Shown: piece by piece, positions 1,794-20,978 of the stretch
Layout: every line of letters begins with the position of its first letter
Numbering within the stretch: the stretch's first letter is position 1
Assembly (NCBI GenBank): GCA_003216725.1
Contig: QCIL01000001.1
Coordinates: 102,812-166,811 of the forward strand
Length of the DNA stretch: 64,000 nucleotides
Direction: 5' to 3'
Origin: Prochlorococcus sp. AG-402-L18
GTDB taxonomy: Bacteria > Cyanobacteriota > Cyanobacteriia > PCC-6307 > Cyanobiaceae
Notes under the pieces: model-generated
Databases searched by the model: none
Told to the model about the DNA's origin: nothing
Seen by the model: only the letters and a program-made list of their open reading frames with translations
Position numbers and translations under genes: made by a program

Positions 1794-1811
1794 CTATTTA
1801 ATTTATTCTTT

Positions 1812-2312
1812 TCAATTTAATGATCTCCACTCTTCTACAACAAATGGTGGGACAGGTAAATCTGAAAAAACACCTGTCAGGGATAATCTCAAAGGTCTAT
1901 TTTTATCAATATTAATTATTAATTCATTAAGATCAAATTCTGCAGCAGCTTGTCTACTGTCATTAGCTAACTCTTTATTTTGGAGTGTTTCATCAGCTAA
2001 TAACCAATTTTTTCTTCCAGCATAAACTCTTAAGTCTGTAGGGTGATCGATCCTAAGGTTTCCTGGATAACCTATTACCCTTAGTATTAATTTATCATCA
2101 AAAATTGGAGATTTATATGCAACTAACTGCCAAGTTTCAAAATCTAAATCTCTTAAAAACTCACTACTAGCTTCTATTAACTCGCCATTAATTTCTGTTT
2201 CTGATACTTTCGCATAACCTTTTAAAGGATTAAAAATTAAGGAAATTAAAATTAATAAATATACTAGGCTTTTAAAAAAAATTTTTTCAATTAAATTTGT
2301 AATTTTCTTCAT
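1812..2312 (-). CDS. DUF3122-like conserved cyanobacterial secreted protein
   Basis: ORF with N-terminal hydrophobic signal; composition and length match a conserved cyanobacterial family; family call from memory. Confidence 0.6.
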   Translation of the reverse strand: MKKITNLIEKIFFKSLVYLLILISLIFNPLKGYAKVSETEINGELIEASSEFLRDLDFETWQLVAYKSPIFDDKLILRVIGYPGNLRIDHPTDLRVYAGRKNWLLADETLQNKELANDSRQAAAEFDLNELIINIDKNRPLRLSLTGVFSDLPVPPFVVEEWRSLN

Positions 2313-2538
2313 TTTCAGAATCCATAAGTGCGTCTAAAGTAACTGCTGTTCTTACAAGAGCTTGGTATTTCTTAATTATTTTACGATTTCTTTCTATAAC
2401 TTTAGATAGAATTTCTGAATCTTTATCAGAATAAATCGTAGTTAAATCATTAGAATCACCTTCTATTAACTCAAAATCGCTTTCTTTGTTAATAAGAGTT
2501 AACAATAGTTCGTGTAATCGTTTTCTCCTGTCCGACAA
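2287..2538 (-). CDS. Conserved hypothetical protein
   Basis: 83-aa ORF overlapping the start of the downstream same-strand gene (operon-like). Confidence 0.6.
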   Translation of the reverse strand: MSDRRKRLHELLLTLINKESDFELIEGDSNDLTTIYSDKDSEILSKVIERNRKIIKKYQALVRTAVTLDALMDSENEENYKFN

Positions 2539-2621
2539 GTAACTTATTATTATTACTCAAATAATAATAGGATAATTTTACAAAACATACAAATTCATTA
2601 TGTAATTCCTATGTAGAAGTC

Positions 2622-3902
2622 ATGACTGAAATAAAAAGAAAAATACACATAATAGGAATTAATTCTCTTGATTTCAAAGAATTATCTCTGAAGTTACAAA
2701 CTTTGTTTTTTGAAACCAGTAGTATCGCAGCACCAGAAAACTATATTGAAAAAATTAAATTGTGGCCTAAAAACAATACTCAAAATAAAAAAATATTTTT
2801 TGCAAGCAAAAGTGACCACAATCTTATTGATTGGCTTAAATCTCAAAAAAAAGATGCAATAGTTTTTTCAAGAGGTGATCCCCTTTGGTTTGGTATAGGA
2901 AGAATTCTTATTGAAAATTTTCCAAGAAACGAATTAAATTTCTATCCATCAAACACTTGCATTCAATTAGCTTTTAGTAAATTAAAGATTCCTTGGCAAA
3001 ATACAAGCTTATTAAGTATTCATGGTAGAGATTCTTACAAATTAGTCGAGACCCTAAAAGCAAAGCCAACGAGTTTAGCAATAATCACAGATTCTAAAAA
3101 TAGAGGCCTAGAAATTATCAAACAAAACTTATTAGAGTTAAAGCTGACTGATTTTTACGAATATTGGCTTTGCGAAGATATTGGTTTTGAAAATGAAAAG
3201 ATAAGAAAATTAGATTTACAAAATGACTTCCCTCAAGATATTTCAAATTTAAACATAGTTGTTCTTTTAAGAAAAGAAAATCATAAAAATAAAAAAGATA
3301 TTCCGCTATTTGGTTTAAATGACAGTATTTTTAAAACCTTTGAAGACAGGCCAAATCTTCTGACTAAAAGAGAAATTAGAATTCAAATTTTAGCTGACCT
3401 AGAACTCCCAGACAATGGCACGATCTGGGATATTGGTGCAGGATGCGGTTCAATTGGTTTAGAGGCATTAAAATTAAGGCCAAATTTAAAATTAATTTGT
3501 ATTGACAAAAGATTAGGTTCTAAAAATTTGATTATAGAAAATGCGAGAATATTAGGAGTAAGCCCTACAGATATTTATGAAGGTGATATAAAAAACTTTT
3601 TAAATTCATATCAAAATGTTCATATAAGTAATTTAAGTCGAATTATTATTGGAGGCTGCGATAAAAAAACTAAAATTCAGATTATTAATAATTTCTCAAA
3701 AAACTTAAATTCTGGAGGAATTATAGCTTTACCCCTAATTGATATTGAAGCCATTAATGATTTAAGTGCTGCACTAAAAGAAAACGACTTCGAAGTTAAT
3801 TTAAATTTAATTCAGACTTATAAAAGTTTAAGCATTGCTGAAGGAATAAGATTGGACCCAAACAATCCTGTTTTTATATTAAAAGGGAAAAAATTAATAT
3901 AA
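2622..3902 (+). CDS. cobL: Precorrin-6Y C5,15-methyltransferase (decarboxylating), CbiE/CbiT fusion
   Basis: N-terminal tetrapyrrole methylase features (FSRGDPLWFGIGR) and C-terminal CbiT-type SAM motif (IWDIGAGCGSIGLEAL). Confidence 0.88.
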   Translation: MTEIKRKIHIIGINSLDFKELSLKLQTLFFETSSIAAPENYIEKIKLWPKNNTQNKKIFFASKSDHNLIDWLKSQKKDAIVFSRGDPLWFGIGRILIENFPRNELNFYPSNTCIQLAFSKLKIPWQNTSLLSIHGRDSYKLVETLKAKPTSLAIITDSKNRGLEIIKQNLLELKLTDFYEYWLCEDIGFENEKIRKLDLQNDFPQDISNLNIVVLLRKENHKNKKDIPLFGLNDSIFKTFEDRPNLLTKREIRIQILADLELPDNGTIWDIGAGCGSIGLEALKLRPNLKLICIDKRLGSKNLIIENARILGVSPTDIYEGDIKNFLNSYQNVHISNLSRIIIGGCDKKTKIQIINNFSKNLNSGGIIALPLIDIEAINDLSAALKENDFEVNLNLIQTYKSLSIAEGIRLDPNNPVFILKGKKLI

Positions 3903-3910
3903 ATAAATTT

Positions 3911-4819
3911 TCACATATTAGGTTTTGCCACATGCGGTAATCCCCATCCTAATTTATTTCTCAGTACTTGAAAAAATTCATGATCTTCTAGTCTTATAAA
4001 CTTTACAGAATGTTTACTTTTTCTGATTAGAACTCTATCTTCAGGCCAAACATAACAACCAGCATTACCATCAACTACCATAACTAATCTTTCGGGTGTT
4101 GCTGGGAAAACTGTTACTGGCTCTGAATCATTAAAAACTAGTGCCCTTGATGCTAAGGAATGAGGGGCAATCGGTGTCAACTGCACAACTGGGCAATCAG
4201 GTGTAATTACTGGGCCCCCAGCGCTTAAAGAATATGCTGTTGAGCCTGTCGGAGTAGATAAGATTACTCCATCAGCTGAAATGTCCACAGGTGCATGTCT
4301 ACCTATGGATATCTCAAAGTGGCACATACTTGTTAATGGCTCTCTATGAAGAGCCATCTCATTTAAACAAAGAGACTCCCATCTTCTTTGTTCATTTCGC
4401 ATCACACTTATTATTAAACAAGTTCTTTCCTCAATTTCCCAATTGCCAATGATAAGTTTATCAATAGCTTCATTTAAATTAGATATATAAGCTTCTGCAA
4501 GAAAGCCTAGATGTCCAGTATTTATTGTGAGGATAGGTATTTTTGCAGGCGCTGTTTGCCTCGCAGCAGAAAGCACAGTGCCATCGCCTCCAAGAACAAT
4601 TGCAAATTCCATAGATGAATCAAACCCCTCAGGTACACAATTGGAATATCCCAAAGGACGAACATGTTGATCAGGATTGGCGAACCCTACCATCCCACCA
4701 GAGCTGCTTACTCTAACAACTTCATAATTAGAATTTTCTAATTTTTTTTGAACAGAAGTTGCAGTTTGAACAGCCAGTTCTTTACCATCATTGACGATTA
4801 GTCCTGCTTTACGTACCAA
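3911..4819 (-). CDS. nadK: NAD kinase
   Basis: GGDGT motif ([13 protein letters not shown]), NTGHLGFL and [16 protein letters not shown] motifs. Confidence 0.96.
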
Positions 4820-4890
4820 TCGATAAATTAAAAACTTATATTATTTTAAACTAATTTGTTTAAGAAACCTAATTTAAAATACTTGTTAAG

Positions 4891-5898
4891 CTAAAATTGT
4901 TCTAAGAATCTAAGGTCATTTGTATAAAATCTTCTAATATCATCAATTTGATGTCTTACCATACAAAATCTTTCGACACCTAATCCAGCGGCAAATCCCG
5001 TCCATTTCTCAGAATCTATGCCCAATTTTTCTAGTACGTTGGGGTCAACCATTCCGCAACCCATAACTTCAAGCCATTTCCCTTTCCACTTAACGTCCAC
5101 TTCAGCAGATGGTTCTGTAAATGGGAAATAACTTGCCCTAAATCTAACAGGAATATCTCCAAAAAAAGTCTTTAAAAAAGTAAGAACTGTTCCCCTTAGA
5201 TGACTAAAGTTTATATTTTGATCTATGCAAAGCACTTCAACTTGATTAAATACAGGAGAGTGAGTTGCATCTACAGCATCCCTTCTGAAAACTCTTCCAG
5301 GAGCAATAATTCTTGCAGGAGGTGGATTATTCTCAAGATATCTTATCTGAACAGGGGATGTATGAGTTCTTAATAGTCGATTTTCATCTAGGTAAAAAGT
5401 ATCCTGCATATCCCGAGCAGGATGATTTTTAGGAATATTAAGAGACTCAAAATTATAGAAATCACTTTCTATTTCTGGTCCGCTTTCAACGGAATATCCC
5501 AATCCACAAAAAATATCAATAATCTCTTCTTGAGTAGAAATTAAGGGATGTTTACTGCCTGGGGGAGTTCCTATTGAGGGAATTGTTACATCAATTTTCT
5601 CGTTTTTAATTTGTTGGTCTAGGGCTTGACTAGTAAGTTTGTTTTTTCTTTCAGTTATTAAATCTTGCAAATTTATCTTTATTAAATTAGCTTTTTGTCC
5701 CACGATTGGTCTATCAGTAGATGATAATTTACTCATATTTTTCAAAATAATTGATAATTCACCTTTTTTCCCTAATAAAGAAACTCTTAATTGATCCAAT
5801 TCATCGTAGTTATTAGCACTATTTATATTTTTTTTAGCTGATAGGGAAAGATTATTTAGTTTTTCCTCAATTTGACTTAATGATTCAATTTGACTCAC
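4891..5898 (-). CDS. pheS: Phenylalanyl-tRNA synthetase alpha subunit
   Basis: Class II aaRS motifs: [49 protein letters not shown]. Confidence 0.97.
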
Positions 5899-5967
5899 TG
5901 ATATAGTAAAAATAAGTATAGTTTTATCTTACTTAAATATCGTCAATAAATAAAATCCTTTAATTAC

Positions 5968-6777
5968 ATGGAGCCATTAAATATATTAATTAGTAATGAT
6001 GATGGCGTTTTTGCTGATGGTATTAGAGCATTAGCCAAATCAGCGAGAAGAAGGGGACATAATGTAACAGTAGTATGCCCTGATCAAGAAAGATCCGCGA
6101 CAGGGCACGGTCTAACTTTACAATCCCCATTGAGGATTGAGAGGGCGGATGAATTATTTGGAAATAATATTGTGGCTTGGGGATGTTCAGGAACGCCTGC
6201 TGATTGTGTGAAACTCGCTTTGTCAGAATTATTAAAAAATAAACCAGATTTAGTTCTCTCCGGAATAAATCATGGTCCAAATTTAGGAACAGACATATTT
6301 TGTTCCGGAACGGTCGCTGCAGCTATGGAAGGCACTTTAGAAAATGTTCCTTCTATGGCGATTAGCGTTGCAAGTTTCAAATGGAAAAATTTTGAATTTG
6401 CGGGGGAAATTGCTATAGATATCGCAGAACAAGCAATAAAAGATAGTTGGCCAAAGTCTCTACTTTTGAACTTGAATATTCCACCTTGTAAGAAGAATCA
6501 AATAAAAGAACTATCTTGGACAAGATTATCAATTAGAAAATATAAAAACCAATTTTCAAAAAGGGAAGATCCTAGAGGTGATGATTATTATTGGTTGGCT
6601 GGCGAAGCCGTATTAGATCTCAAGTCAAAGGGTTATGGCCCTAAAAATTGGCCAAGTGATGTATCCCAAATACAAAAAAATTATATTTCGCTTACCCCTT
6701 TAGAGCCAGATTTATTTTGGAGAGGTAATTTACATATATTGCCTAAAGTGAATACTTCATTTATAAATTCGTCTTAA
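5968..6777 (+). CDS. surE: 5'-nucleotidase SurE
   Basis: [33 protein letters not shown] and [25 protein letters not shown] motifs. Confidence 0.96.
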
Positions 6778-7290
6778 CAACCATAAAGATAAGCAAAGTC
6801 CAAAAAAATGAGCTGCTATAACTTGCGTATTACTTAGAACTGACAAGATTTCAAGTCCTGTTATTGGAATATCAGATGCTGCGGAAATAAGTTGACCTGT
6901 AGTTTGAGAGGAGGCCTGTATAAAAAGTGCCCCCATTAGTGCCTGATATCCAATTAATCCAAATAAAATTCCTAATAGGTCAACAATCAATCCTCTTTTA
7001 ATTAATCTGCTAGTCTGACCTCTAGAAGGTCTAGCGTTACTTGAAATTGCTCTACCAGTTCTTACTATTAACCAACCTTGCCAGAGACTTAGAAGTAGTA
7101 AAATAAGGGATATTGTTGTTAGTGATAGACCAGGAGTTAAGCCTAATTCCCCTTCACTATTATTTACAACATTTGAAAAGAGCAATACGGCAGCAACTAC
7201 AACACCTAAAATGGATTGAATCCAAAACCGTATCCATCCAATACGCCTCATTCCAAATGATAGGGATTGAAAATCAACCTTATCAGACAT
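6757..7290 (-). CDS. DUF3611-like integral membrane protein
   Basis: Four or more predicted hydrophobic helices; conserved cyanobacterial membrane protein pattern; converges on and slightly overlaps surE. Confidence 0.7.
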
Positions 7291-7358
7291 TCATTTGATT
7301 GAATAAATTATAATCAATTCAAATTTGCCATCTAATTCATAAAATTGCACGTTTTCTT

Positions 7359-8282
7359 GTGATCTCTTTAATATCTCCATCTGAAGTTAAGAACCCCACA
7401 TCAATAGCCATTGGTAGTTTTGATGGTTTGCATGCTGGCCATAGAAAATTAATAGAAAGTGTAGTTAAAGAAAATAAACATATCCCAACAATCGCTAGTT
7501 TTTGGCCACATCCTAGAGAAGTTCTCTATAAAGAAACTCGTTTAAGACTAGATTTACCGGAGGAAAAACTTCCTATCCTTGAAGCTCTTGGCATTCAACA
7601 ATTAGTACTAATTCCATTTAATAGGGAGCTCTCCAGATTAAGTGCTGATAGCTTTGTAAAAAATATTTTAATCAATCAATTAAAGGCAAAAAATATTTCA
7701 GTAGGGGCAAATTTTAGATTTGGTTTCAAAAGAAGTGGAGATATCGATACAATTAAAAACGCAACAAAAGATTTAGACATAAAACTCAATATTATTTCTA
7801 TTTTAGAGGACAAAAATGGAAGAGTTAGCAGCAGTAGAGTGAGAGATTTACTACAAAAAAGTGATTTTAAAAATGCTTTTGAGATTCTCAATAGACCCTA
7901 TAGTTTTACAGGAAAAGTAGTTAAGGGTAAAGGGATTGGTAAAAGTTTAGGTTTTCCTACAGCAAATCTAGAAATAGATGGAAGAAAATTTTTACCTAAT
8001 GTAGGTGTCTATGTAGCTTGGACTAAAATTAAAAATTCTAAAGAACAGATTGCCTCTATAATGAATATTGGTCCTCAACCAACTATAGACCCTCTACTAC
8101 CATCAGCAGTTGAAGTGCACTTAATTCATAAAGATGTAAGTCTTTATGGTTTAGATTTAACTATAGAACCAGTTCAAAGAATCAGATCTCAAATTAAATT
8201 CGAGAATATTGATCAGCTCACCTATCAAATTAAAGTAGATAGAGAAAATGCTTTGCAAATTCTTAAAAATCTCAAAAAATAA
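7359..8282 (+). CDS. ribF: Bifunctional riboflavin kinase / FAD synthetase
   Basis: IGSFDGLHAGHRKLI nucleotidyltransferase motif and kinase motif GKGIGKSLGFPTANLE. Confidence 0.95.
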   Translation: MISLISPSEVKNPTSIAIGSFDGLHAGHRKLIESVVKENKHIPTIASFWPHPREVLYKETRLRLDLPEEKLPILEALGIQQLVLIPFNRELSRLSADSFVKNILINQLKAKNISVGANFRFGFKRSGDIDTIKNATKDLDIKLNIISILEDKNGRVSSSRVRDLLQKSDFKNAFEILNRPYSFTGKVVKGKGIGKSLGFPTANLEIDGRKFLPNVGVYVAWTKIKNSKEQIASIMNIGPQPTIDPLLPSAVEVHLIHKDVSLYGLDLTIEPVQRIRSQIKFENIDQLTYQIKVDRENALQILKNLKK

Positions 8283-8290
8283 TCTTAAAT

Positions 8291-9349
8291 ATGAAAAATT
8301 TAAATTTGAGTAAACCAGATGATTTAAGGATAGCTCAAATTATTGATGCTAATCTAGACAGAGCGAGAGAGGGTCTAAGAGTATTAGAAGATTGGGCAAG
8401 ATTTGCCTTAGGCAAAGAAGATTTTGTTATACAAATAAAAAATTTCAGACAAATATTAGGCAAGAATCATTTAGAAATTTATAAATTGTCAAGAAATTAT
8501 ACCAATGACCAATGCAAAGGATTAACTCATGAAGAACAGTTTAAAAGAAACAATCCAGAAGAAATTATAAGTTCTAATTCAGCAAGAGTTCAGGAAGCCC
8601 TTAGAGTAATTGAAGAATTCACAAGGAATCAAAATAATTATCTATCCAAGATAGCTTCAAATATTAGATATGAAATTTATACTCTCGAGCTCAATTTATT
8701 AAATCATTGCAATCTTCAAAAAGCAAAAACATTAATTAATAAAAACAATCTATATTCCATAACAGATAAGAGAGAAAATTTGATACAAATAATAGAACAG
8801 ATACTGTTAGGTGGGGTGAAAATAATTCAGTATAGATTTAAAGATGGTAGCGATAAAATCCACCTAAAAGAAGCAATTAAAATAAAAAGTATATGCAAAA
8901 AATATGAATCTCTACTTATAATTAATGACAGAATTGATATAGCACTTGCATCAAACGCAGATGGGGTCCATCTTGGGCAAGATGATATTGACATATTGAC
9001 GGCAAGAAAGTTGCTTGGGCCCTCAAAAATTATTGGTATAACGGCAAATAATTCAAAGGATATTAATAATGCTATAAAAAATGGATGTGATTATGTTGGA
9101 GTAGGACCAGTTTTTGAGACAAATACTAAAAAAGGTAAAAAACCTCTTGGAATAAAAAAGATTAAAGATCTGACAAAAAGCATAGATATCCCATGGTTTG
9201 CTATTGGAGGTATTAACAAAGAAAATATTTCTTCTTTAAAAAAACAAGGGATTAATAAGGTTGCATTAGTTTCTGGACTCTTTAATTCTGAAGACCCAAA
9301 ACAAGAGGCTATTATGTTCTTAAAAGAATTAATAACTCATGAAACTTAA
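8291..9349 (+). CDS. thiE: Thiamine-phosphate synthase with cyanobacterial N-terminal extension
   Basis: C-terminal ThiE barrel motifs (LLIINDRIDIALASNADGVHLGQDD, GPVFETNTKKGKKPLG, FAIGGI); N-terminal domain typical of cyanobacterial ThiE. Confidence 0.93.
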   Translation: MKNLNLSKPDDLRIAQIIDANLDRAREGLRVLEDWARFALGKEDFVIQIKNFRQILGKNHLEIYKLSRNYTNDQCKGLTHEEQFKRNNPEEIISSNSARVQEALRVIEEFTRNQNNYLSKIASNIRYEIYTLELNLLNHCNLQKAKTLINKNNLYSITDKRENLIQIIEQILLGGVKIIQYRFKDGSDKIHLKEAIKIKSICKKYESLLIINDRIDIALASNADGVHLGQDDIDILTARKLLGPSKIIGITANNSKDINNAIKNGCDYVGVGPVFETNTKKGKKPLGIKKIKDLTKSIDIPWFAIGGINKENISSLKKQGINKVALVSGLFNSEDPKQEAIMFLKELITHET

Positions 9350-9548
9350 AGTAAACGGGAAAGAAAAAGATTTAGATTTAGATCTTCAAAAAGCTTGGTT
9401 ATCTAGTACTATAAATCTCCTTGGCTATAAGCCAAATACCATTATTGTTGAGGTAAATAATATAATTATCAGTTCAAATAAATGGGATGAAAAATTATTA
9501 AAAGAAGGAGATAGATTGGAAATTGTTTCGATTGTTGGGGGTGGTTAA
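9339..9548 (+). CDS. thiS: Sulfur carrier protein ThiS
   Basis: 69 aa ending in the VGGG diglycine tail; overlaps the 3' end of thiE. Confidence 0.93.
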   Translation: MKLKVNGKEKDLDLDLQKAWLSSTINLLGYKPNTIIVEVNNIIISSNKWDEKLLKEGDRLEIVSIVGGG

Positions 9549-9699
9549 TAAATTTTTTTAAGAATTAATGTAAAGATTAAAAAAATTTTTATTTTTAAAA
9601 AAAATTCTTAAAATCTTCATATTTTTTTAACTTTAAGCATGAAACAATAACCCAATTTTGATTTTTTTCATTTTATATTTCTATTACACAAATTAAAAA

Positions 9700-9870
9700 A
9701 TGGAAAAAAAGAATTTAAATCATGACTCAAGATCATTAAAATGGGAGTCAAATGGTGAATTGGCACAAAAAGATTTATCAGAACTTATCGAAAGATTAAA
9801 AAATGTAGAAAGTGAAGATACATCTTCAGAATTATCAAGATTAGGTACTAAATCGAACATTAAAAATTAA
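9700..9870 (+). CDS. Small hypothetical protein (56 aa)
   Basis: Not in ORF track. ATG at 9700: MEKKNLNHDSRSLKWESNGELAQKDLSELIERLKNVESEDTSSELSRLGTKSNIKN*. Protein-like composition. Confidence 0.55.
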   Translation: MEKKNLNHDSRSLKWESNGELAQKDLSELIERLKNVESEDTSSELSRLGTKSNIKN

Positions 9871-9937
9871 TTTTGTAACTAAGATCTTGTTTTTATAAAA
9901 ATCTGTACCAAATTATAATTACCATGTTTTTAAATAA

Positions 9938-10069
9938 ATGCGTAGAAGATTTCCAGAATGGGTTAATACTGAAGTTGTTGTAAAAGCGATCAAAATGAGA
10001 GAAGAAGGGAAACTTTCCAAACAACTTAATTTATGGATTGAAAATCTATTAGAAATTGACAAGAAATGA
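9938..10069 (+). CDS. Small hypothetical protein (43 aa)
   Basis: Not in ORF track. ATG at 9938: MRRRFPEWVNTEVVVKAIKMREEGKLSKQLNLWIENLLEIDKK*. Amphipathic, protein-like. Confidence 0.5.
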   Translation: MRRRFPEWVNTEVVVKAIKMREEGKLSKQLNLWIENLLEIDKK

Positions 10070-10076
10070 TTTTTTT

Positions 10077-10733
10077 TTAGCCCATTTTTTTAATAATTCG
10101 CAAAGTAGCCATTGCAGCCCCATAACCATTATCTATATTCATTACCGCAATCCCTGGAGAACAACTTGCCAACATACTATTTAAAGCAGTTACTCCTTGT
10201 GTACTTACGCCATAGCCTACTGATACAGGTACAGCAATAATTGGTTGTGGCAATAAACCTCCAACAACTGTTGCTAAAGCACCTTCCATTCCAGCACAAA
10301 CTATTAAAACATCATATTTATTAATTTCTTCTATCTGGCTAATTAATCGGTGAAGACCAGCCACTCCAACATCTATAAAAGTTTGGCAATTAATACCATA
10401 AATTTCTAAAGCTAATTTTGCTTCAAGTGTGACAGGTAGATCACTTGACCCACCTGAAATAATTGCAACCTTTTTATCAGTCTTTAGCTTATTAAAGTTT
10501 TCGCCAATTATTAGACATTTTGCTTCTTCATAAAATATTGCTTCTTCATAGATATCTAAAATAAACTTTGCTTTTTCAGAGTTAATTCTAGTTACGAAAA
10601 CAAGTTCGTTTCTATCTAAAACTTCCTTACAAATATTTTTTAATTGTTGAATATTTTTGTCAGCTCCCCAAATTGCTTCAATGAGACCAATTCTCTCTCT
10701 CCTTTGAAAGTCAAACCTAATATCAAAATTCAT
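10077..10733 (-). CDS. larB: LarB-like nickel pincer cofactor biosynthesis protein (PurE-related)
   Basis: PurE-like C-terminal core: IISGGSSDLPVTLEAKLALE...DVGVAGLHRL...VCAGMEGALATVVGGLLPQPIIAVPVSVGYG. Confidence 0.88.
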   Translation of the reverse strand: MNFDIRFDFQRRERIGLIEAIWGADKNIQQLKNICKEVLDRNELVFVTRINSEKAKFILDIYEEAIFYEEAKCLIIGENFNKLKTDKKVAIISGGSSDLPVTLEAKLALEIYGINCQTFIDVGVAGLHRLISQIEEINKYDVLIVCAGMEGALATVVGGLLPQPIIAVPVSVGYGVSTQGVTALNSMLASCSPGIAVMNIDNGYGAAMATLRIIKKMG

Positions 10734-11161
10734 CCTTGTTGAACCAATTCTCCCTCATAAATCAATTTAAAAGGGTTTTGATTTACATTCAATGCTGATT
10801 TGACACTTTCTTCAAATTTTTCTTGAATCAGCTCTACTTCATCCATCGAAATACTTTTCCAAAATTCTTTATTTTGCCACTTGACAAGTATTAGAGCCTC
10901 TTCTCTTACTTCATCCAAAAAAATTTGTCTCCCCAAATAACCATCTTTTGATGATAACCATGGATGCCAAATTTGCTTTTCAGCATCTAACCAGATTTTT
11001 TTTAAATTTACTGGTACTTTAATTCTTAATTCCTCAGTAATAAATTTATCTTGATTATTTAACATTGGAATAGCATTCAAAATTTGTAAATTATTTTGTG
11101 CAAATAATACTAATAAGAATATACATAAGAAAAAAATACTTTTCACTTTCTTGATAAACAT
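10730..11161 (-). CDS. Conserved hypothetical protein with N-terminal signal/TM segment
   Basis: 143-aa ORF with N-terminal hydrophobic segment; stop/start overlap with larB. Confidence 0.6.
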   Translation of the reverse strand: MFIKKVKSIFFLCIFLLVLFAQNNLQILNAIPMLNNQDKFITEELRIKVPVNLKKIWLDAEKQIWHPWLSSKDGYLGRQIFLDEVREEALILVKWQNKEFWKSISMDEVELIQEKFEESVKSALNVNQNPFKLIYEGELVQQG

Positions 11162-11171
11162 AGCATTTAAT

Positions 11172-11675
11172 TTAAATCTTTTCCCCCAGTAAAACTACTG
11201 AATAACAACTAATCCCTTCCTCTCTACCTTCAGGTCCCAAAGTTTCATTTGTTGTAGCCTTAATACCAATTAAATCCTTATCCAAATTTAAAGCTCTAGA
11301 AATATTTTCTTTCATATTATCTATATGAGGTAATATTTTTGGTCTCTCAGCAACAACGATGCTATCAATATTATTTATTATCCAACCTTTACTCTGAATT
11401 AATTCGATAACCTTAGTCAATAAAATTATGCTATTAGCATTTTTCCATTTCTCATCTGATGGAGGAAAATATTTACCAATATCTCCAAGTGATAAAGCTC
11501 CTAACATTGCATCCATTATTGAATGAACTAAAACATCTGCATCACTATGCCCATCTAGACCTAGTTTATTGGGATGGGTTAATTTTACTCCTCCAATAAT
11601 TAAGTCTCTATTTTTTACTAATTTGTGAATATCATACCCATTACCAATGCGGAATTTTGGAAAATTTTTATACAT
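11172..11675 (-). CDS. ispF: 2-C-methyl-D-erythritol 2,4-cyclodiphosphate synthase
   Basis: [48 protein letters not shown] and [17 protein letters not shown] motifs. Confidence 0.97.
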
Positions 11676-11828
11676 ATCAAGATTTCTGAAACTTAATTAA
11701 ATTATGGTTATCTAATTTCAAATCCCAACTTATTGTTTCACTTAACATTTATTAAAGAGGTTTGAATTAAAATTATTTTAACAAGTTAAAGACTATTTTC
11801 TAGTAGTCAATTTTAGATTGAAATTAAA

Positions 11829-13232
11829 ATGAAAAAAATTAAGCTATCAATATTATTGACAGGGATAGTTGGCGCATCAATTTATATATTTTCTAATATA
11901 GATATCTTGTATAGAAAAACCAATGTGGCTTCTTTTTTAAGTCTAGAGCAAAAGACATTTCTTAAAAATTATATCTTTCCACAAATAAAAATAAATCAAG
12001 AAGTTGAGCAGAAAGCGCAATCACTCAAAAAGTTAAATGAAATGAGATTTTACTTAGCTCAATTAGAATTAATAAAAAAAAATAGTGGTACAGATATTGA
12101 AACAGCTAAAAGTAATTTTGATTTAAAAGAAGTTACTAATTCCAAATTAGATAACTCTAATTTAGAAAAATATATGTTGACTTCAGGTTTCTATTCGGGA
12201 ATACATAGTGATTTTCCTGGTAGTGGTTATATTGACTTTCATAAAAATGACATGATAATAGTATCTTCAAGAGGTTTATTAGCATTCAGCAAAAATTTTC
12301 CTTCCAAAAAATATATTTTTAAACAAATAAAAAATAATATTGATCAATTTATAAATTTAAAACAATTTAAAAAATCAAATCATTTTTCCATTAAAGACTT
12401 ATTAATTTTCAAAAAAAATATATATATTTCTTATACAGAAGAAATAACTAACGATTGTTGGAATACAAGTATAATTTATGGTCAAATCAATTATAAAAAT
12501 ATAAATTTTCAGAAGTTATTTGCATCAAAAAAATGTATCCATTCAACTAAAAACCTAGATAATGAATTCGTTCCACATCAATCGGGAGGGAGGATGATAC
12601 CATTTGATGATAGTAATATTGTATTCTCAGTTGGTGATTATAGAAGCAGATATCTTGCTCAAGATTTGAATAGTATAAATGGGAAATTAATAAAAATTAA
12701 TTTAAATAATAAAAAATATAAGATCATTTCTATTGGTCATAGAAATCCTCAAGGTTTATATTTAGATACTGAAAATAATTTCATATTAGAAACTGAACAC
12801 GGACCAATGGGAGGTGATGAAATTAATTTATTAAAAGAAATAAAAACTAATAAAGATAATATTTATAATTTTGGATGGCCTACATCATCTGCTGGAGAAC
12901 ATTATGGCGGGAAAACTAAGGAAAACAAGAAAAAATATGAAAAATATCCGCTTTATAAATCACATTTAGATCATGGTTTTTTGGAGCCAGTAAAATCCTT
13001 TGTGCCTTCCATAGGTATATCCGAAATTGTTAAGGTTGGGAAGAATAATTATGTCGTTAGTTCATTAAAAGATAAATCACTATATTTTTTTGTATTAAAA
13101 GATAATGGATCTATACAAATTATAAATAAAATAAAAATCGGTGAAAGGATAAGAGATTTAGTATTTAAGAAAAATAACTTATATATGTTTCTTGAGGATA
13201 CAGCTTCAATAGGAATATTAAAAATAAATTGA
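11829..13232 (+). CDS. Membrane-anchored PQQ-type sugar dehydrogenase-like (beta-propeller) protein
   Basis: N-terminal TM anchor; GHRNPQGLYLD...ETEHGPMGGDEINLL and YNFGWPTSSAGEHYGG resemble soluble aldose/glucose dehydrogenase propellers. Confidence 0.75.
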   Translation: MKKIKLSILLTGIVGASIYIFSNIDILYRKTNVASFLSLEQKTFLKNYIFPQIKINQEVEQKAQSLKKLNEMRFYLAQLELIKKNSGTDIETAKSNFDLKEVTNSKLDNSNLEKYMLTSGFYSGIHSDFPGSGYIDFHKNDMIIVSSRGLLAFSKNFPSKKYIFKQIKNNIDQFINLKQFKKSNHFSIKDLLIFKKNIYISYTEEITNDCWNTSIIYGQINYKNINFQKLFASKKCIHSTKNLDNEFVPHQSGGRMIPFDDSNIVFSVGDYRSRYLAQDLNSINGKLIKINLNNKKYKIISIGHRNPQGLYLDTENNFILETEHGPMGGDEINLLKEIKTNKDNIYNFGWPTSSAGEHYGGKTKENKKKYEKYPLYKSHLDHGFLEPVKSFVPSIGISEIVKVGKNNYVVSSLKDKSLYFFVLKDNGSIQIINKIKIGERIRDLVFKKNNLYMFLEDTASIGILKIN

Positions 13233-13288
13233 ATATTATTAATTATTTCAAATATAATACAGAGATATAGAATTATAAAACTTAAAAT

Positions 13289-14272
13289 TTATTTTGCTTT
13301 TTTATGATTAATAAAGGCGATTACCTTTACTAGATCTAAAATGACTGAAATAAAAGAAAATTTCAAAAATTGAATTATATTAAACTTGAAAATATTTACT
13401 TTTTTATTAATCGGTAGTAAAAATAATCTATAAAATAAGTAAATAAAAATAATCAAAGAACAAAGTATTTTAGATATATGTGGAGCGTAAAGTATGCTGT
13501 TTTCGTCCCAATCTGCAACTTGATCGTTCCAGCTAAATGCTAAAAAAATTGAAAAAATTACTAAATAGCTAATATACAAAATTCTCTGGGAAACAAAAGA
13601 AGAAGTTAGATAAGTAGATTGGTAGTAAAGATACCATTTATTAATTAAATCAAGAAAATTTTTTCCTTTTAAGCCTTTATAAATAAGAGGACTAACTTTT
13701 GTTTGATTAATTCTTGGATGGAATAACTTTGCTCTGCTCCTCCACTCTGCATCCTCACCACTTCTGGTATAAGGTATAAAAAAACCTATTTCAGTTAATA
13801 ATTTTTTTTCTATTAAAGTTCCCGGTACAGTATAAAGAGGTTCACTTCCAAATGTTGCTGCAATAAAACATGTCTCGATTTCATTAATACCAATATATTT
13901 ACATCGTCCAAAAACGCCCCTTAAATTTTTTTCTTTTAAGATTTTTTTAGAATTAAAAAGCCAATCTTTATTAGGCAAAGGGTGAGAATCCAAAAAACAA
14001 ATATATTCACATTTACTTTCAATAATTCCAATATTCCTAGCTTCACCTGGCATGACAATCCTATCTAAAGAAATAATTTCAATTTTTATATTTAAAAGAC
14101 TTTTGAGAATTGATAAATCTTGCTTCTTTTCAATATTATTTACACCCGATACGACACATATTATCTCTCCCAAATGATCAATATTGTTATCTAAATGATT
14201 AAATAGTATTACTAATTCATCTAAGTCATCATATACAGAACCAATTACTAATGAAATTTCTTTTTTATCCAT
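13289..14272 (-). CDS. Glycosyltransferase family 2 with C-terminal membrane helices
   Basis: GT-A type core (MPGEARNIGIIESKCEYICFLDSHPLPNKDWL) plus two C-terminal hydrophobic segments. Confidence 0.8.
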   Translation of the reverse strand: MDKKEISLVIGSVYDDLDELVILFNHLDNNIDHLGEIICVVSGVNNIEKKQDLSILKSLLNIKIEIISLDRIVMPGEARNIGIIESKCEYICFLDSHPLPNKDWLFNSKKILKEKNLRGVFGRCKYIGINEIETCFIAATFGSEPLYTVPGTLIEKKLLTEIGFFIPYTRSGEDAEWRSRAKLFHPRINQTKVSPLIYKGLKGKNFLDLINKWYLYYQSTYLTSSFVSQRILYISYLVIFSIFLAFSWNDQVADWDENSILYAPHISKILCSLIIFIYLFYRLFLLPINKKVNIFKFNIIQFLKFSFISVILDLVKVIAFINHKKAK

Positions 14273-14420: not shown

Positions 14421-15596
14421 ATGAAAGTTTTATACATATCTCCAGATGGGATTCTTGACGATCTTGGACAAAGCCAAATCTTACCCTATATATATGGTCT
14501 TAATAACAAAGGCTATAAATTTGTTATTTTAAGTTTCGAGAGGACTTATAGAACAGGAGAAGAGTTTTTAAAACAAAAAAAGGTTCTAAAAGATAGAGGA
14601 ATTGAATGGTATTATTTACCTTTCTACCAAGCAAAATATAATAGGCTACTTAGAGTACTTTTTGGTGCAATTAAAATAAATATTATTTGCAGAAAACACA
14701 ATATAAATTTAGTTCATCTTAGGTCCATAAATGCAGGCATTATTTTTCTAGTTTCGGCTATAAGATGTCCTTATTTATACGATATAAGAGCATTTGCCGG
14801 ACAATTAGTGGACTATGGATTACTAAAAAAATCATGGTTTTCAAAACTAATCATTAATATTGAGAAAATTTTAATAAATAAATCAGCAGGAATAGTTGTA
14901 CTGGATGAGTCAGGTGCAAAATATTTAAATAATAGTTTCAATTTGAATATCCCTTTACAAATAATTCCAACAGCCACAAATATAAAAAAATTTAAGGTGG
15001 ATTTAGAGAGAATCGCGGACTTTACTAATGAAACGTTAAAGTTTGTTTTTCTAGGTGGTGCCCAATTCCCATATCTACCTAGAGAGGCACTAAAGTTTTT
15101 AAAAATATTATTAAAAAATAAAATTGATTGTAATGTTGACATAATTAATAAAAGTCATCACAAATTTATATATAAAGTTATTGAAGAATTAAATTTCCCA
15201 AGAGATAAAATAAGAATATTTTCTCTTGAACCAAGTAAAATTTTTAATTATTTACCAAATTATGATTGTGGTTTGGTTTTTATTGAAACAGGTGATTGGA
15301 TCAAGATGTCTTCTCCAACAAAAATTGGAGAATATCTTGCAGCAGGTTTACATATAGTTGGTCTTGAAGGTATTGAGATTCTTGATAGACTCTCAAAAGA
15401 ATCCATATCTGTTGATTTATTACCCAGAAATTTTGATTTTAAAGGAATAACTCTAAATGAAATAAAAGGGATTACTAAAAATATAAAAAATGAAAACAGA
15501 AAAAAAAATAGCATTTCAATTGCAAAAAAATTTTATGATATAGAATCTGCATTAAAAAAATATCTAAAAATTTACAAAAGTATTTTAAAAAAGTAA
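14421..15596 (+). CDS. Glycosyltransferase, GT4-like (GT-B fold)
   Basis: MKVLYISPDGILDDLGQSQILPYI N-terminal pattern and SSPTKIGEYLAAGLHIVG C-terminal donor-site motif. Confidence 0.8.
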   Translation: MKVLYISPDGILDDLGQSQILPYIYGLNNKGYKFVILSFERTYRTGEEFLKQKKVLKDRGIEWYYLPFYQAKYNRLLRVLFGAIKINIICRKHNINLVHLRSINAGIIFLVSAIRCPYLYDIRAFAGQLVDYGLLKKSWFSKLIINIEKILINKSAGIVVLDESGAKYLNNSFNLNIPLQIIPTATNIKKFKVDLERIADFTNETLKFVFLGGAQFPYLPREALKFLKILLKNKIDCNVDIINKSHHKFIYKVIEELNFPRDKIRIFSLEPSKIFNYLPNYDCGLVFIETGDWIKMSSPTKIGEYLAAGLHIVGLEGIEILDRLSKESISVDLLPRNFDFKGITLNEIKGITKNIKNENRKKNSISIAKKFYDIESALKKYLKIYKSILKK

Positions 15597-15617: not shown

Positions 15618-16466
15618 TTATATATCACCATATGTTATTAAATTGAAATTCTTAAAAATTTCCTTATTTATAAGGATATTTTTTTCATAATCTGCCTTTC
15701 TAAAAAAATTAAGCTTTCTGTTAAATTTATTTCCATAAAAATCTTTTAATTCTTCCGAAATATCATAAACATGTATCATTAGTTCATGAATATTAGACTT
15801 TGATAACTTTGCTAATTGATAGTAATCAGATTCGCATGGTAATTGAAAGGGGTGGAAATCAAAAATAGAATTAAATGAATTATTAAACTTTAAAGAAATT
15901 TTTTCTGCATATTTAGCATTAATTTTAGATGCTAAAAAAAGTACAATTTGTTTAAAAATTTTATTTAAATTATATCCTCCATTTTTTCTTTTAATTATAT
16001 GAGGGAAAGCAATTCTTACTTTAATTCCTTTAGATTTAGCAAAATCAGCAACAATTTTAAAAATTTTGGGGTTCATATGAATGTGCTCATGACTATCTAT
16101 ATGAGTTATATATAATCCTTTTTTTTTCAAATAATCATACTGAGCTTCAAGCTCATCTAGTACATCATAAGTTTTGATTTTAAATAAATATAAGCCAAAA
16201 ATTAACTTAAATTTATCTAAAAAAATTCCTTCTGAATTCGTAAGTGTAGATCGACCTGAAATAGATTTCCCTTCGGTAATATTAAAATGGAGACCAATTC
16301 CAAGTCCTAAGTTATTTTTGGCAAGTTCCAATGCATAATCTGTGGCAGGAGTATTTACCATGATAGATGTACTACTTAAGTTGCCTTTTTTATAAATTTC
16401 AACAATACGATCTGATATATCTTTCGTTAATCCAAAGTCATCAGCATTAACTATTATTCTTTTCAA
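15618..16466 (-). CDS. ChbG/HpnK (YdjC) family polysaccharide deacetylase
   Basis: MKRIIVNADDFGLT, GIGLHFNITEGK and HIDSHEHIHMNP metal-binding motifs. Confidence 0.88.
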   Translation of the reverse strand: MKRIIVNADDFGLTKDISDRIVEIYKKGNLSSTSIMVNTPATDYALELAKNNLGLGIGLHFNITEGKSISGRSTLTNSEGIFLDKFKLIFGLYLFKIKTYDVLDELEAQYDYLKKKGLYITHIDSHEHIHMNPKIFKIVADFAKSKGIKVRIAFPHIIKRKNGGYNLNKIFKQIVLFLASKINAKYAEKISLKFNNSFNSIFDFHPFQLPCESDYYQLAKLSKSNIHELMIHVYDISEELKDFYGNKFNRKLNFFRKADYEKNILINKEIFKNFNLITYGDI

Positions 16467-17297
16467 TTACTTATAACCTCTTAGTACTAAATGTCCTGCA
16501 AAATTCTTATAAAATCCTGAAAAATATTGCCTTTTATTAATAATTTCAAGTAAAAGACAATAAAATCTTCCAAACTTTAAACCGAATTTGTAAGAGATTC
16601 TTATTGTCGCAAACATTCTTCCTGAAGCGAAGACTCTTTTAAAACCTATTTTTTTTATATTGATTATTTCTCTATTTGCATTTGTAAAATAACAATTATG
16701 ATAATTGATTCCTTTTAAAGTTTTTGAAAATTTTATAAGAAAATAATATATATAATAAAAATCTGTTGCCCATCTATTTACATGGGTAACATTAAAAAAA
16801 CCACTAGGCTTCAACACTCTAAAAATTTCTTTATAAGAATTTAAAACATCTTGTTTATGTAAGTACCTTAAAACTTCTATAGAAACTACATAATCAAAAG
16901 TATTATCTTCAAAGGGTAGTTTAACTGATATCGCATCAATAAAAGAGATTTCAGGAAAATTTTTCATTGCTAAAGATAGCATCTTCTTAGATGGATCTAT
17001 TCCTATAACTTCATGACCAAGATCAGATATAAACTTACTAAGATGACCAGTTCCGCAACCTAAATCTAAAATCTTAGAATTTGGTTTTAAATTTTTTAAA
17101 TCTTTTTTAACTTCTTCGAATATTTGGTATCTCCCATAAATAAATTCATCAGTGAGTCTTCCCAATTTAAAATTTACATATCGTCCCTGAAATATCCCAC
17201 TATCAATATCATGTCTTTTTTCTGCCATATGTCTGTCTTGCAAAGTTAAATCATTTTGATTCTTTTTATCTTTATTTGGATCTATCCTAAAATTCAT
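16467..17297 (-). CDS. Class I SAM-dependent methyltransferase
   Basis: Motif I ILDLGCGTGHLSKFI; motif II/III LPFEDNTFDYVVSIEVLRYL...EIFRVLKPSGFF. Confidence 0.85.
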   Translation of the reverse strand: MNFRIDPNKDKKNQNDLTLQDRHMAEKRHDIDSGIFQGRYVNFKLGRLTDEFIYGRYQIFEEVKKDLKNLKPNSKILDLGCGTGHLSKFISDLGHEVIGIDPSKKMLSLAMKNFPEISFIDAISVKLPFEDNTFDYVVSIEVLRYLHKQDVLNSYKEIFRVLKPSGFFNVTHVNRWATDFYYIYYFLIKFSKTLKGINYHNCYFTNANREIINIKKIGFKRVFASGRMFATIRISYKFGLKFGRFYCLLLEIINKRQYFSGFYKNFAGHLVLRGYK

Positions 17298-17491: not shown

Positions 17492-18712
17492 ATGTTGAAT
17501 ATTGCGGTAATTAATGGCGGGCGAGGTGCATCAGGACTTATTACTGCTCTTTTAAAAAAACCCTATGTAAATTTAACTTCAATTGTCAATGCATATGATG
17601 ATGGCAAATCAACTGGAGAAATTAGAAAGGTTTTTGGAATGCTTGGACCTTCTGATATAAGAAAGGTCCAACAATTAATGCTTCCTGCTGATGATCCTCA
17701 ACATAAAACATATCAAAAACTTTTTAATCACAGATTTGCAAAAGATGTAAAAAGAGAATTTATTTTTGAAGAAATTAATTACTTTTTAAATAATGAAGAT
17801 GCAAAATTAGTGGGAGAAAAAATAGTTTCAGAAAATGTAAGGAGATATTTAAAAAAATTCTTAAAAAATTTTCTAGATTGTTTGAAATCTATTGAAAATC
17901 TTAAAAATATAAAATTTAATTTTTCTGATTGTTCAATTATGAATTGTGTTTATGCGGGAGCATTCCTTCATTTTAATAGAAACATAGCTGATTCAACCTT
18001 ATTTTTTGGGAAATTATTTAATTTAAGAGGAAATGTTATTGCAACAAGCATTGAAAATAAACATCTTGTTGCATTAAGAGAAAATGGAGAAATGCTTTAC
18101 TCTGAAGCAGAAATTGTTGAATTAAGATCAAACGTGAGAATTGAAAGAATATTTCTCTTAGATGAAAAATTACCTCAAGAATCATTTGAGAAGTTTTCTG
18201 CCAATGAAAAAAGATATTATTTAAATCAACATAATTGTCATGTTCCTATATCTCAATCTGTAATGCTTACTCTAAAGCAAGCTGACATAATAATTTATTC
18301 TGCGGGTACGCAACATTCTTCTCTTTATCCTAGCTACATAAGTACTGGCCTTTCAGAAACTATTGCCAATAATAAAAAAGCACTAAAAGTTTTTATTACT
18401 AATATTGGTGCAGATTATGAGACGCCACAATATAAGGCATCAGATTATTTTTTAGGTGCCTTTAAATACCTGAATCTAACTGACTCAAGAGATTACCAAA
18501 TGGAAGATTTATTCGATTATATTTTTATAAATAAAGGAGATAATCTAGATTCTTCCTCTTATGTAATATTTGATGAAGAAGCATTTAAAAATATAAATAT
18601 AAAAAAAATAATAAAGAATTTTGAATCAAAAGATTCTCCAGGTAAACATGATGGTGATTTATTAACTGAAGAAATTCTTAATTTAAATAAATTTTCAGAA
18701 AAAAATTTATAG
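17492..18712 (+). CDS. YvcK/CofD family (2-phospho-L-lactate transferase-like) protein
   Basis: NGGRGASGLITALLKKP...SIVNAYDDGKSTGEIRKVFGMLGPSDIRKVQQLM, a diverged version of the YvcK GGGTG...DDGGSSGRLR...PPGDIR pattern; SAGTQHSSLYPSYISTGLSE matches the GPGSLYTSI-type region. Confidence 0.78.
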   Translation: MLNIAVINGGRGASGLITALLKKPYVNLTSIVNAYDDGKSTGEIRKVFGMLGPSDIRKVQQLMLPADDPQHKTYQKLFNHRFAKDVKREFIFEEINYFLNNEDAKLVGEKIVSENVRRYLKKFLKNFLDCLKSIENLKNIKFNFSDCSIMNCVYAGAFLHFNRNIADSTLFFGKLFNLRGNVIATSIENKHLVALRENGEMLYSEAEIVELRSNVRIERIFLLDEKLPQESFEKFSANEKRYYLNQHNCHVPISQSVMLTLKQADIIIYSAGTQHSSLYPSYISTGLSETIANNKKALKVFITNIGADYETPQYKASDYFLGAFKYLNLTDSRDYQMEDLFDYIFINKGDNLDSSSYVIFDEEAFKNINIKKIIKNFESKDSPGKHDGDLLTEEILNLNKFSEKNL

Positions 18713-18719
18713 ATTATTA

Positions 18720-19349
18720 ATGAATATTTCAAACAAAATAAAAAATGCTAAATTTTTAATTTTTGATGTAGACGGAACTATTGCAGATACTTCCGAGATT
18801 CATGAAATTGCATTCAAAAAAATTTTTAACCCATTTTTAATTCCTATTCAATACAATAAGCTCGCTGGTAAGAGTACCAAATCAGCAGTAGAGCTCATTG
18901 CAAAAAATAATAAATTAAATTTAAATCATTATGAAATAATGGAATTAGTTTCAAAAAAACAATTATATGTAAGAGAAGCAATTAATTCTTCAACAAAATT
19001 AAAGTCTCTGCCTTTTGTTGAGGAATTTATAAAAGATGTGCATATGCACTATAAAATGGGCGTTGCATCTTCCGGGTCCAGAAAAACAATAGAGTTAGTT
19101 CTCAAAAGATTAAATTTATTTAACTATTTTCAACTAATATTATGTTCTGAAGATGTTAGAGAATCTAAACCTTCACCAGAAATATTTTTAAAAATTTGTG
19201 AGTTATCTAACTTTTCTAAAGAAGAATGTTTAATATTTGAAGACTCTCAAAATGGGATAGAGGCTTCCAGAAGTGCCAAAATTCCATATATCAATGTAAC
19301 AGTTCATCCTTTTAGTATTCTTTTAAAAAAGTTTAGAGATATTTTATGA
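18720..19349 (+). CDS. HAD superfamily hydrolase, beta-phosphoglucomutase-like
   Basis: FLIFDVDGTIADTSEIHE, ASSGSRKTIE, SEDVRESKPSPEIFL and FEDSQNGIEAS motifs I-IV. Confidence 0.87.
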   Translation: MNISNKIKNAKFLIFDVDGTIADTSEIHEIAFKKIFNPFLIPIQYNKLAGKSTKSAVELIAKNNKLNLNHYEIMELVSKKQLYVREAINSSTKLKSLPFVEEFIKDVHMHYKMGVASSGSRKTIELVLKRLNLFNYFQLILCSEDVRESKPSPEIFLKICELSNFSKEECLIFEDSQNGIEASRSAKIPYINVTVHPFSILLKKFRDIL

Positions 19350-20263
19350 ATCACCTGAAAACAGTCGCAATTGTAGTAACTCACAATAGATCTAAACTTC
19401 TTAAAAGATGTTTAATCAATTTAATGGGACAAACTTATAAACTTGATAAGATTTTGGTCATAGATAATGATTCTAAAGATAATACTCAGGAAGTATTATC
19501 TAATTTGAAAATTGATTGCATAAAACAACAAAATTTAGGTTCTGCTGGAGGTTGGAATACAGGATTAAAATATGCACTTAAAAATGGATTTGATGCAGCA
19601 TGGTTAATGGACGATGATGGCTATCCTGATAAAAAAGCATATGAGATTCTCAAGAAATCTTATTCAGCAGAAATGTCATGTATTTCTTCAGTAATAGTAA
19701 ACGATTCTGATAAATCTAAGTTTGTATTTCCTTATCCCATAATTAATAGATATGGAATACCCAAAAATGGAATCTATAGACAAAATATTAAATTTGTTTC
19801 TAGCTTACCAATTTATAGTAAAAATAATTTATATCCATGGATTCACCCTTTTAATGGAGTTTTAATTTCAATTAATGCTGTAAGAAAAATTGGGAATGTC
19901 AATACAGATTACTTTTTATATGGTGATGAAGTTGATTATTTTTTTAGACTTAGAAAAGTAGGAAAAACATTCTCGCATGTAAAAGCTTTACACTTTCACC
20001 CTGAAATATCTAAAAGACCCCTTACTAAAATAAAAATATTTTATTTTATCAGAAACAGCATAATTAATTATAAAAAATACTATAAATATAAAATCTTCAA
20101 ATGTTCCTTAGGTATTTTATATATTCTTTTCAAGATTTATCAGAAAAACAATTTTAAAACCATTATTTCTTTATTATTTGGAAAAAACAAAAAACTTTTT
20201 TATAAGAGTTTATACCAAGGCCTAAACAACAAATTAGGTATAAATTATGATATCAAAGATTAA
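19346..20263 (+). CDS. Glycosyltransferase family 2, galactofuranosyltransferase GlfT2-like
   Basis: VAIVVTHNRSKLLKRCL, NLGSAGGWNTGLKYAL, AWLMDDDGYPD and HPFNGVLIS pattern. Confidence 0.85.
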   Translation: MNHLKTVAIVVTHNRSKLLKRCLINLMGQTYKLDKILVIDNDSKDNTQEVLSNLKIDCIKQQNLGSAGGWNTGLKYALKNGFDAAWLMDDDGYPDKKAYEILKKSYSAEMSCISSVIVNDSDKSKFVFPYPIINRYGIPKNGIYRQNIKFVSSLPIYSKNNLYPWIHPFNGVLISINAVRKIGNVNTDYFLYGDEVDYFFRLRKVGKTFSHVKALHFHPEISKRPLTKIKIFYFIRNSIINYKKYYKYKIFKCSLGILYILFKIYQKNNFKTIISLLFGKNKKLFYKSLYQGLNNKLGINYDIKD

Positions 20264-20978
20264 GGTGGCTACTTTAATAGCAGCAGCAGGAAAAGGATCT
20301 AGAGCGAATCTTCCATATCCCAAAACTCTTTTTAGAATAAATGGTAAAGAAATATTATTAAGAATTCTTGATCTAACAAAAGAATATGATCCAAAACCAA
20401 CAATAGTAGTTAGCCCCAATGGGAAAAAAGATATAAATAATTTTTTATTAAATAATTCAAGAGAATCAAACATAGTTATCCAAGAAAAGCCAAGAGGAAT
20501 GGGTGATGCTGTACTTAAATTTGAGAATTCACCTTCCTTTAAAATGTGTGAGAATATTTTATTGATCTGGGGCGATGTACCCTTTATAAAAAAAATAACC
20601 ATTCAAAAAATGGTTGATAGACATTTAAAAAAAAATAATATTTTTACTTTCGTTACTTCCGAAACAGAAACAGCTTACACAAGAGTAAATCGAGATAAAA
20701 AAGGTAATATTATAAAAATCATAGAAACAAGAGAAGAGAACCTACCTATTGAAAAAGGTGAAAGAGATATAGGTCTTTTTATTTTTAAAAAGAAAGAAGT
20801 TTTTGATTTATTAAAAAAAGAATTACCTAAAAAATATAGCCAAAAAACAAATGAGCATGGATTCTTATATGTAGTTTCCTATCTCGTTAAAAATGGTCAT
20901 AAAGTTGAAGGCCTAAAAATAGCAAAAGATGAAGAATTAATTTCGCTAAATAAAATATCTGACCTAAGGAAAATATGA
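20247..20978 (+). CDS. Nucleotidyltransferase (GlmU N-terminal/NTP_transferase-like), no hexapeptide acyltransferase domain
   Basis: ATLIAAAGKGSRANLPYPKTLFRING signature; EKPRGMGDAVLKF; WGDVPFI; only about 243 aa. Confidence 0.82.
   Translation: MISKIKVATLIAAAGKGSRANLPYPKTLFRINGKEILLRILDLTKEYDPKPTIVVSPNGKKDINNFLLNNSRESNIVIQEKPRGMGDAVLKFENSPSFKMCENILLIWGDVPFIKKITIQKMVDRHLKKNNIFTFVTSETETAYTRVNRDKKGNIIKIIETREENLPIEKGERDIGLFIFKKKEVFDLLKKELPKKYSQKTNEHGFLYVVSYLVKNGHKVEGLKIAKDEELISLNKISDLRKI

Follow-up and report, generated by a model that had tools for sequence, protein, structure and literature searches.

What does a protein of the CofD/YvcK fold do in a tight run of sugar-handling genes of Prochlorococcus? 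This question is raised by a 64,000-nucleotide stretch of Prochlorococcus sp. AG-402-L18 (contig QCIL01000001.1, positions 102,812 to 166,811), analysed as a whole and called here the window, in which four genes, denoted A to D, follow one another on the forward strand. All four are intact open reading frames (ORFs) classified with Pfam and NCBIfam, and A was also modelled with AlphaFold2 (AF2):

17492-18712, + strand: gene A, CofD/YvcK fold, 406 amino acids (aa)
18720-19349, + strand: gene B, HAD-IA enzyme (beta-phosphoglucomutase-type phosphosugar phosphatase or mutase), 209 aa
19346-20263, + strand: gene C, GT2 glycosyltransferase, GlfT1-like, 305 aa
20247-20978, + strand: gene D, GlmU N-domain-like nucleotidyltransferase, 243 aa, without the acetyltransferase domain

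Our answer is that the four-gene set is a real and apparently undescribed module for a nucleoside diphosphate (NDP)-sugar. Gene neighbourhoods and fusions show A, B and D working jointly with a glycosyltransferase, both in bacterial surface-glycan loci and in the DNA-modification loci of large phages. This would be a third apparent setting for the CofD/YvcK fold, which is known from the F420 phosphotransferase and from a cell-wall protein for which a regulatory as well as a uridyltransferase role has been described.

A mobile cassette in distant bacteria

An earlier note on this DNA had read the four co-directional, nearly touching or overlapping genes as one operon-like unit composed of a CofD-like protein, a HAD protein, a “GlfT2-like” GT2 and a pyrophosphorylase devoid of the acetyltransferase domain. 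The spacing of A/B, B/C and C/D (+7, −4 and −17 bp) and the gene order kept in 25 of 35 related loci agree with such a unit, and Pfam returns the same four families: CofD (3e-30) for A, HAD_2 (8e-34) for B, Glycos_transf_2 (6e-19) for C, and NTP_transf_3 (2e-10) with NTP_transferase (6e-8) for D. None of the four proteins reaches an NCBIfam equivalog cut-off, and each is therefore a diverged member of its superfamily. B scores 114 bits against TIGR01990 (beta-phosphoglucomutase, cut-off 189) and possesses the HAD catalytic Asp pair. The GT2 assignment of C stands, while its likeness to GlfT2 does not, since GlfT1 (NF050113) is closer (110 bits, cut-off 330). D is closest to GlmU (98 bits, cut-off 450), is short enough to lack the acetyltransferase part, as had been noted, and keeps the residues of the GlmU uridine triphosphate (UTP) site: K25, Q76 and D105, with roles taken from PMC10128056, correspond to K26, Q79 and D110 of D, which are invariant in 23 sequences, as is N235.

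To see how widely A occurs, it was used as the sole query against 84,980 species genomes in peptide-seeded scans, so that the frequencies are not census values. We found 35 full-length relatives (40-79% identity; two more matches are only ~27% identical) in Prochlorococcus, SAR86, Pelagibacteraceae, Accumulibacter, Competibacter, Burkholderiales, Geomonas (Geobacteraceae), sphingomonads, Myxococcota, Bacteroidota and Clostridia. The order A-B-C-D, at times with an inserted methyltransferase or glycosyltransferase, is present in 25 of these loci; since the search used A alone and its relatives come from several phyla, this arrangement is not due to chance. The homologues of A are thus not scattered without partners, which the earlier note had named as a ground for rejecting its reading. 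The other ten loci comprise A-C-D (three), C-A-B-D (one), A-D (one), truncated contigs (two) and A-B only (three, in Clostridia). The distance matrices of A, B, C and D correlate with each other (rho 0.65-0.84; none of 500 permutations was as high).

The four-gene set is a mobile cassette conserved across distant bacteria. The nearest relatives of the window genes are in records named Prochlorococcus and Synechococcaceae, while A is present in 5 of 266 Prochlorococcus-genus genomes, and among 339 genomes drawn across the phylum it occurs solely in the window's own. In the tree, the cyanobacterial A sequences nest among the proteobacterial ones, which is the pattern expected of horizontal transfer. 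For Prochlorococcus, the cassette marks a mobile surface-glycan trait restricted to few genomes, of the kind expected in host-phage interaction.

Gene A in relation to YvcK, GlmR and CofD

Is A simply the housekeeping YvcK? Its AF2 model (predicted local distance difference test score, pLDDT, 89.5) has YvcK 2o2z as the best match in the PDB (template modelling score, TM, 0.86 by target length), followed by CofD and FbiA. Against TIGR01826 (YvcK/GlmR), A reaches 96 bits and its relatives 96-117 bits, short of the cut-off of 196, and its clade has a signature of its own: VNAYDDGKSTG...LGPSDIRK, (S/A)(A/P)GTQHSSL, TNIG(A/E)DYETP and PGKHDG. Four groups separate in the tree, with Shimodaira-Hasegawa-like approximate likelihood ratio test (SH-aLRT) values of 93 for the A family, 99 for phage domains with one phage-like contig of a metagenome-assembled genome (MAG), 97 for YvcK and 100 for F420-CofD; the tree was built by a quick method and has long branches, so its deep joins are unsure. 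Four other cassette-bearing Prochlorococcus genomes (loci L032, L033, L042 and L064) contain both A and a separate housekeeping YvcK (loci L074-L077, which score 360-367 bits against the CofD model), and A is therefore not a YvcK orthologue: co-occurrence and separate clades rule this out. In the window's own assembly (84.8% complete), A is the sole CofD-fold gene detected, and the genome's YvcK probably falls in an assembly gap. None of B, C and D lies within ~1 kb on either side of the housekeeping YvcK, the control loci being only ~2-4 kb long. The view of A as a diverged CofD/YvcK protein is upheld.

A has in common with YvcK/GlmR (TIGR01826, 2o2z) the fold, the GG-x-G loop, the DD motif, the Asn motifs and the domain layout. 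It differs by the GGRG and YDDGKSTG/GTQHSSL signatures, by its length (~400 aa vs ~310-330 in the solved structures), by the GlmR residue N198, which is not kept, and by its glycan-cassette setting. Among NCBIfam models, A matches the GAK-system CofD-like protein best, over nearly its full length (TIGR04357; 110 bits, cut-off 340). One annotated GAK locus contains an HprK-related kinase, an ATP-grasp protein and phosphatases, none of which was seen near A in the window; with the score below the cut-off, membership in this system is rejected. With CofD/FbiA of F420 synthesis A shares the superfamily and both catalytic metal ligands, while the clades are separate, and no F420 genes (CofC, CofE) were found among the Pfam-scanned window neighbours or the scanned recurrent neighbours of A. 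Two cassette-bearing SAR86 genomes (L087 and L090) also encode a protein with F420-type CofD motifs, which suggests F420 or related chemistry in SAR86.

The catalytic metal of FbiA is bound by D45 and D57 (PMC7253369), which correspond to D36 and D55 of A when the motifs NTGDD...SPD and NAYDDGKSTG...PSD are aligned with an insertion allowed. Both residues are invariant in 35 of 35 sequences and conserved in the phage domains. Since these residues, as well as K26, Q79 and D110 of D, are kept, A and D look like active enzymes, and A is, by its sequence, a separate CofD-fold family with the catalytic metal site retained.

Which reaction could A then perform? GlmR/YvcK proteins were reported to form UDP-N-acetylglucosamine (UDP-GlcNAc; UDP, uridine diphosphate) from UTP and GlcNAc-1-phosphate, for which D40, D41 and N198 are needed (PMC10128056). 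By analogy, A may itself be a nucleotidyltransferase that makes an NDP-sugar directly from sugar-1-phosphate and a nucleoside triphosphate (NTP), leaving D for a second sugar or step. D40/D41 do correspond to the invariant D36/D37 of A, and a mutase-nucleotidyltransferase fusion would be logical. However, residue counting in the PDB alignment places N198 at a Thr or Ser of A, and D37 is replaced by Asn in some phage CofD domains. Moreover, a well-conserved, dedicated D is nearly always there, which would make such an A redundant in loci with a single glycosyltransferase. We consider this role quite unlikely.

Phage fusions and the predicted order of steps

A scan of viral contigs with the A alignment revealed three contigs that encode an A-like domain joined, in one protein, to a C-terminal HAD. 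A further scan with these CofD-HAD fusions gave 38 loci, or 32 distinct ones after near-copies and one partial locus were removed and a 462-kb phage record was added; the contigs are metagenomic and up to 462 kb long. All 32 have a phosphomannomutase-like HAD after the CofD domain, usually as a fusion, and in 31 a D-like nucleotidyltransferase is encoded, nearly always directly behind it. A DNA-type glycosyltransferase is found in 28 contigs (24 in a T4 beta-glucosyltransferase-like cluster and four in a TET-associated cluster). Genes clustering with thymidylate-synthase-like proteins occur in 19 and nucleotide-kinase-like genes in 17, where the Pfam names of neighbours were checked on representatives and the kinase label comes from sequence reading only. 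In hhalign, the phage CofD domain covers the entire profile of A (E 1e-55), its HAD is of the phosphomannomutase (PMM)/alpha-phosphoglucomutase type (profile E 1e-16 to a solved PMM), and AF2 with Foldseek gave matches to both domains; PHROGs and the BFVD structure library gave no match to the CofD part. The phage module probably serves DNA-base glycosylation, which it would predict for many uncultured large phages.

When annotated phages were searched with the window's A, only the 462-kb uncultured phage and some Listeria phage records were found. The latter (OR848133.1, OR848159.1, OR846781.1 and OR846774.1; 14-21 kb, unannotated) match only the first ~82 residues of A, with 43% identity, resemble the host YvcK and may contain bacterial DNA.

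The phage arrangements bear directly on the order of the steps. In addition to the CofD-HAD (A-B) fusions, phage L118 has CofD alone together with a HAD-nucleotidyltransferase (B-D) fusion, and in locus L068 (80-4460) A, B and D are separate adjacent genes in this order. These arrangements make B the middle enzyme linking A and D, and they support a step order for an undescribed sugar-activation pathway. By its dUTPase-, deaminase- and sliding-clamp-like genes, the L068 contig, which had been placed in a Firmicutes MAG, resembles phage DNA. Since enzymes of the D type act on sugar-1-phosphates, B is expected to deliver such a compound, and A to provide the substrate of B.

We therefore propose, with a probability of roughly 0.5, that the cassette produces and transfers a single unusual activated sugar, with the steps in the predicted order A, B, D, C. 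A would move a phosphate from a nucleotide to a sugar or sugar phosphate, most likely giving a sugar-1,n-bisphosphate; B would convert this product into a sugar-1-phosphate, either as a phosphatase or as a bisphosphate-primed mutase; D would form the NDP-sugar, probably a UDP-sugar; and C, often with a neighbouring GT4 glycosyltransferase, would transfer the sugar to a surface polysaccharide. In phages, a DNA glycosyltransferase would use the NDP-sugar in place of C. Both HAD groups recruited as B include enzymes working via sugar-1,n-bisphosphates. In the ADP/GDP-heptose pathway, an anomeric kinase, the HAD phosphatase GmhB and a nucleotidyltransferase act, and the proposed pathway would follow the same logic (anomeric phosphorylation, removal of the distal phosphate by a HAD, nucleotidylation), with a CofD-fold enzyme replacing the kinase. 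A phosphotransferase making a sugar (bis)phosphate would be the simplest role for A, being chemically close to the hydroxyl attack on the nucleotide beta-phosphate proposed for FbiA/CofD (PMC7253369).

Several observations weigh against this order. FbiA/CofD moves an entire phospho-organic group, and for GlmR a uridyltransferase activity is reported, so that kinase-like chemistry would be a novelty for the CofD fold. The B proteins of phages and bacteria belong to different HAD groups. B does not adjoin A in SAR86, Pelagibacteraceae and one alphaproteobacterium (L050, L056, L057 and L060); three of these four genomes have B-like HADs elsewhere that match weakly to moderately, and no such HAD was found in the fourth. 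The clostridial loci are devoid of D. Finally, the correlation of A with AsnB, a gene outside the cassette, is as strong as that with B (rho 0.73), so the distance-matrix correlations partly reflect the shared ancestry of the loci.

The earlier note had suggested that A either senses UDP-sugars or installs a phosphodiester-linked group; neither is now the best reading, since the CofD-HAD and HAD-nucleotidyltransferase fusions place A upstream of B and D. As a sensor or regulator, A would tune the pathway, as was proposed for Bacillus YvcK/GlmR. YvcK is the closest solved fold to A and binds UDP-sugars (PMC5482804). Nevertheless, the catalytic metal ligands of A are invariant, and A is fused to HAD in phages. 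It also occurs in phage DNA-modification loci and in a natural-product-like cluster, settings in which one would hardly expect a host-specific regulator. This function is therefore very improbable.

The phosphodiester route would resemble CofC/CofD: D would activate a phospho-compound X with NTP, A would move phospho-X from NDP-X to a glycan or lipid with release of a nucleoside monophosphate (NMP), B would trim a phosphate, and C would add a neighbouring sugar. It agrees with the retention of the CofD/FbiA metal ligands in A and with the co-occurrence of A and D in almost every bacterial and phage locus, also where B is absent; D and CofC moreover share a broad NTP-transferase fold class. Yet D is nearest to GlmU and has no CofC match in the NCBIfam search, the A-B and B-D fusions give B the intermediate place, a poor match for a direct supply of A by D, and the phage partners are DNA glycosyltransferases, which need an NDP-sugar rather than a phosphodiester donor. 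On balance, we regard this route as unlikely.

Returning to the order A, B, D, C, a bolder version of it can be put forward tentatively: A may be the founding member of a new class of CofD-fold anomeric phosphotransferases for sugars (or sugar phosphates), forming with the HAD and the nucleotidyltransferase a general NDP-sugar module that serves bacterial surface glycans and supplies an undescribed sugar to the DNA of very large phages. The product of this small set of soluble enzymes would identify the sugar.

Phage sugar-activating enzymes beside DNA-modifying ones are also described for the DNA pentosylation genes of RB69 and Thanatos, which include a nucleotidyltransferase-phosphotransferase fusion and a sugar isomerase (PMC6024577, PMC12838424). 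The phosphotransferase domain of that system is described as being of another type, in contrast to the CofD-HAD with a separate nucleotidyltransferase found here. We dropped this arabinose-type system as a homologue, as neither paper mentions CofD; the comparison was made by description only. The open-access literature, an incomplete basis for judging novelty, yielded nothing that links CofD-like proteins with polysaccharide or with the modification of phage DNA.

Glycan neighbourhood and other CofD-like settings

Upstream of A, the window contains three further genes of interest:

14421-15596, + strand: GT4-family glycosyltransferase, 61% identical to L032 2136-3308, orthologue of the usual gene upstream of A
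15618-16466, − strand: YdjC-like carbohydrate deacetylase (Pfam), candidate neighbour between GT4 and A
16467-17297, − strand: S-adenosylmethionine (SAM) methyltransferase (Pfam), candidate neighbour between GT4 and A, absent at the matching place in L032-L034

The GT4 family is represented in 27 of the 37 CofD-like loci analysed, mostly directly upstream of A, and is thus a frequent fifth gene; its distance matrix correlates more weakly with those of A to D (rho 0.21-0.54). An AsnB-type amidotransferase and an EpsG-type polymerase are further frequent neighbours, and together with GT4 they point to surface-glycan synthesis as the bacterial context. The three nearest relatives have nothing in place of the YdjC and methyltransferase genes, and the segment 15618-17297 is a recent insertion or a local rearrangement of the glycan locus.

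A different setting is represented by Clostridia, where A and B adjoin a UGT-type glycosyltransferase. In L061, L062 and L066 (Clostridium/Anaerocolumna, ~1-13450), the A-B pair lies beside an ORF of 2300 aa, nonribosomal-peptide-synthetase-like by eye, and near a 297-aa protein, the UGT-type glycosyltransferase, an enoyl-CoA hydratase and a 3-hydroxy-3-methylglutaryl-CoA (HMG-CoA)-synthase-like protein. This is apparently a natural-product cluster using the A-B pair. The 297-aa protein (cl18) has no Pfam, NCBIfam or convincing PDB match; its HxH-like motif we take as a hint of a HIT/GalT-type enzyme.

Two distant relatives occur in other surroundings. In L067 (4167-7461, Ktedonobacteraceae), a very diverged CofD-like gene with the VNAYDDGKSTG motif overlaps a GlmU-like nucleotidyltransferase gene followed by an NAD epimerase, with no adjoining HAD. 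In L155 (3830-9798, plasmid pR132504 of Rhizobium leguminosarum), a distant CofD-like gene lies among genes for a HAD phosphatase, two NUDIX hydrolases and an inositol monophosphatase, possibly representing another undescribed setting of the CofD fold.

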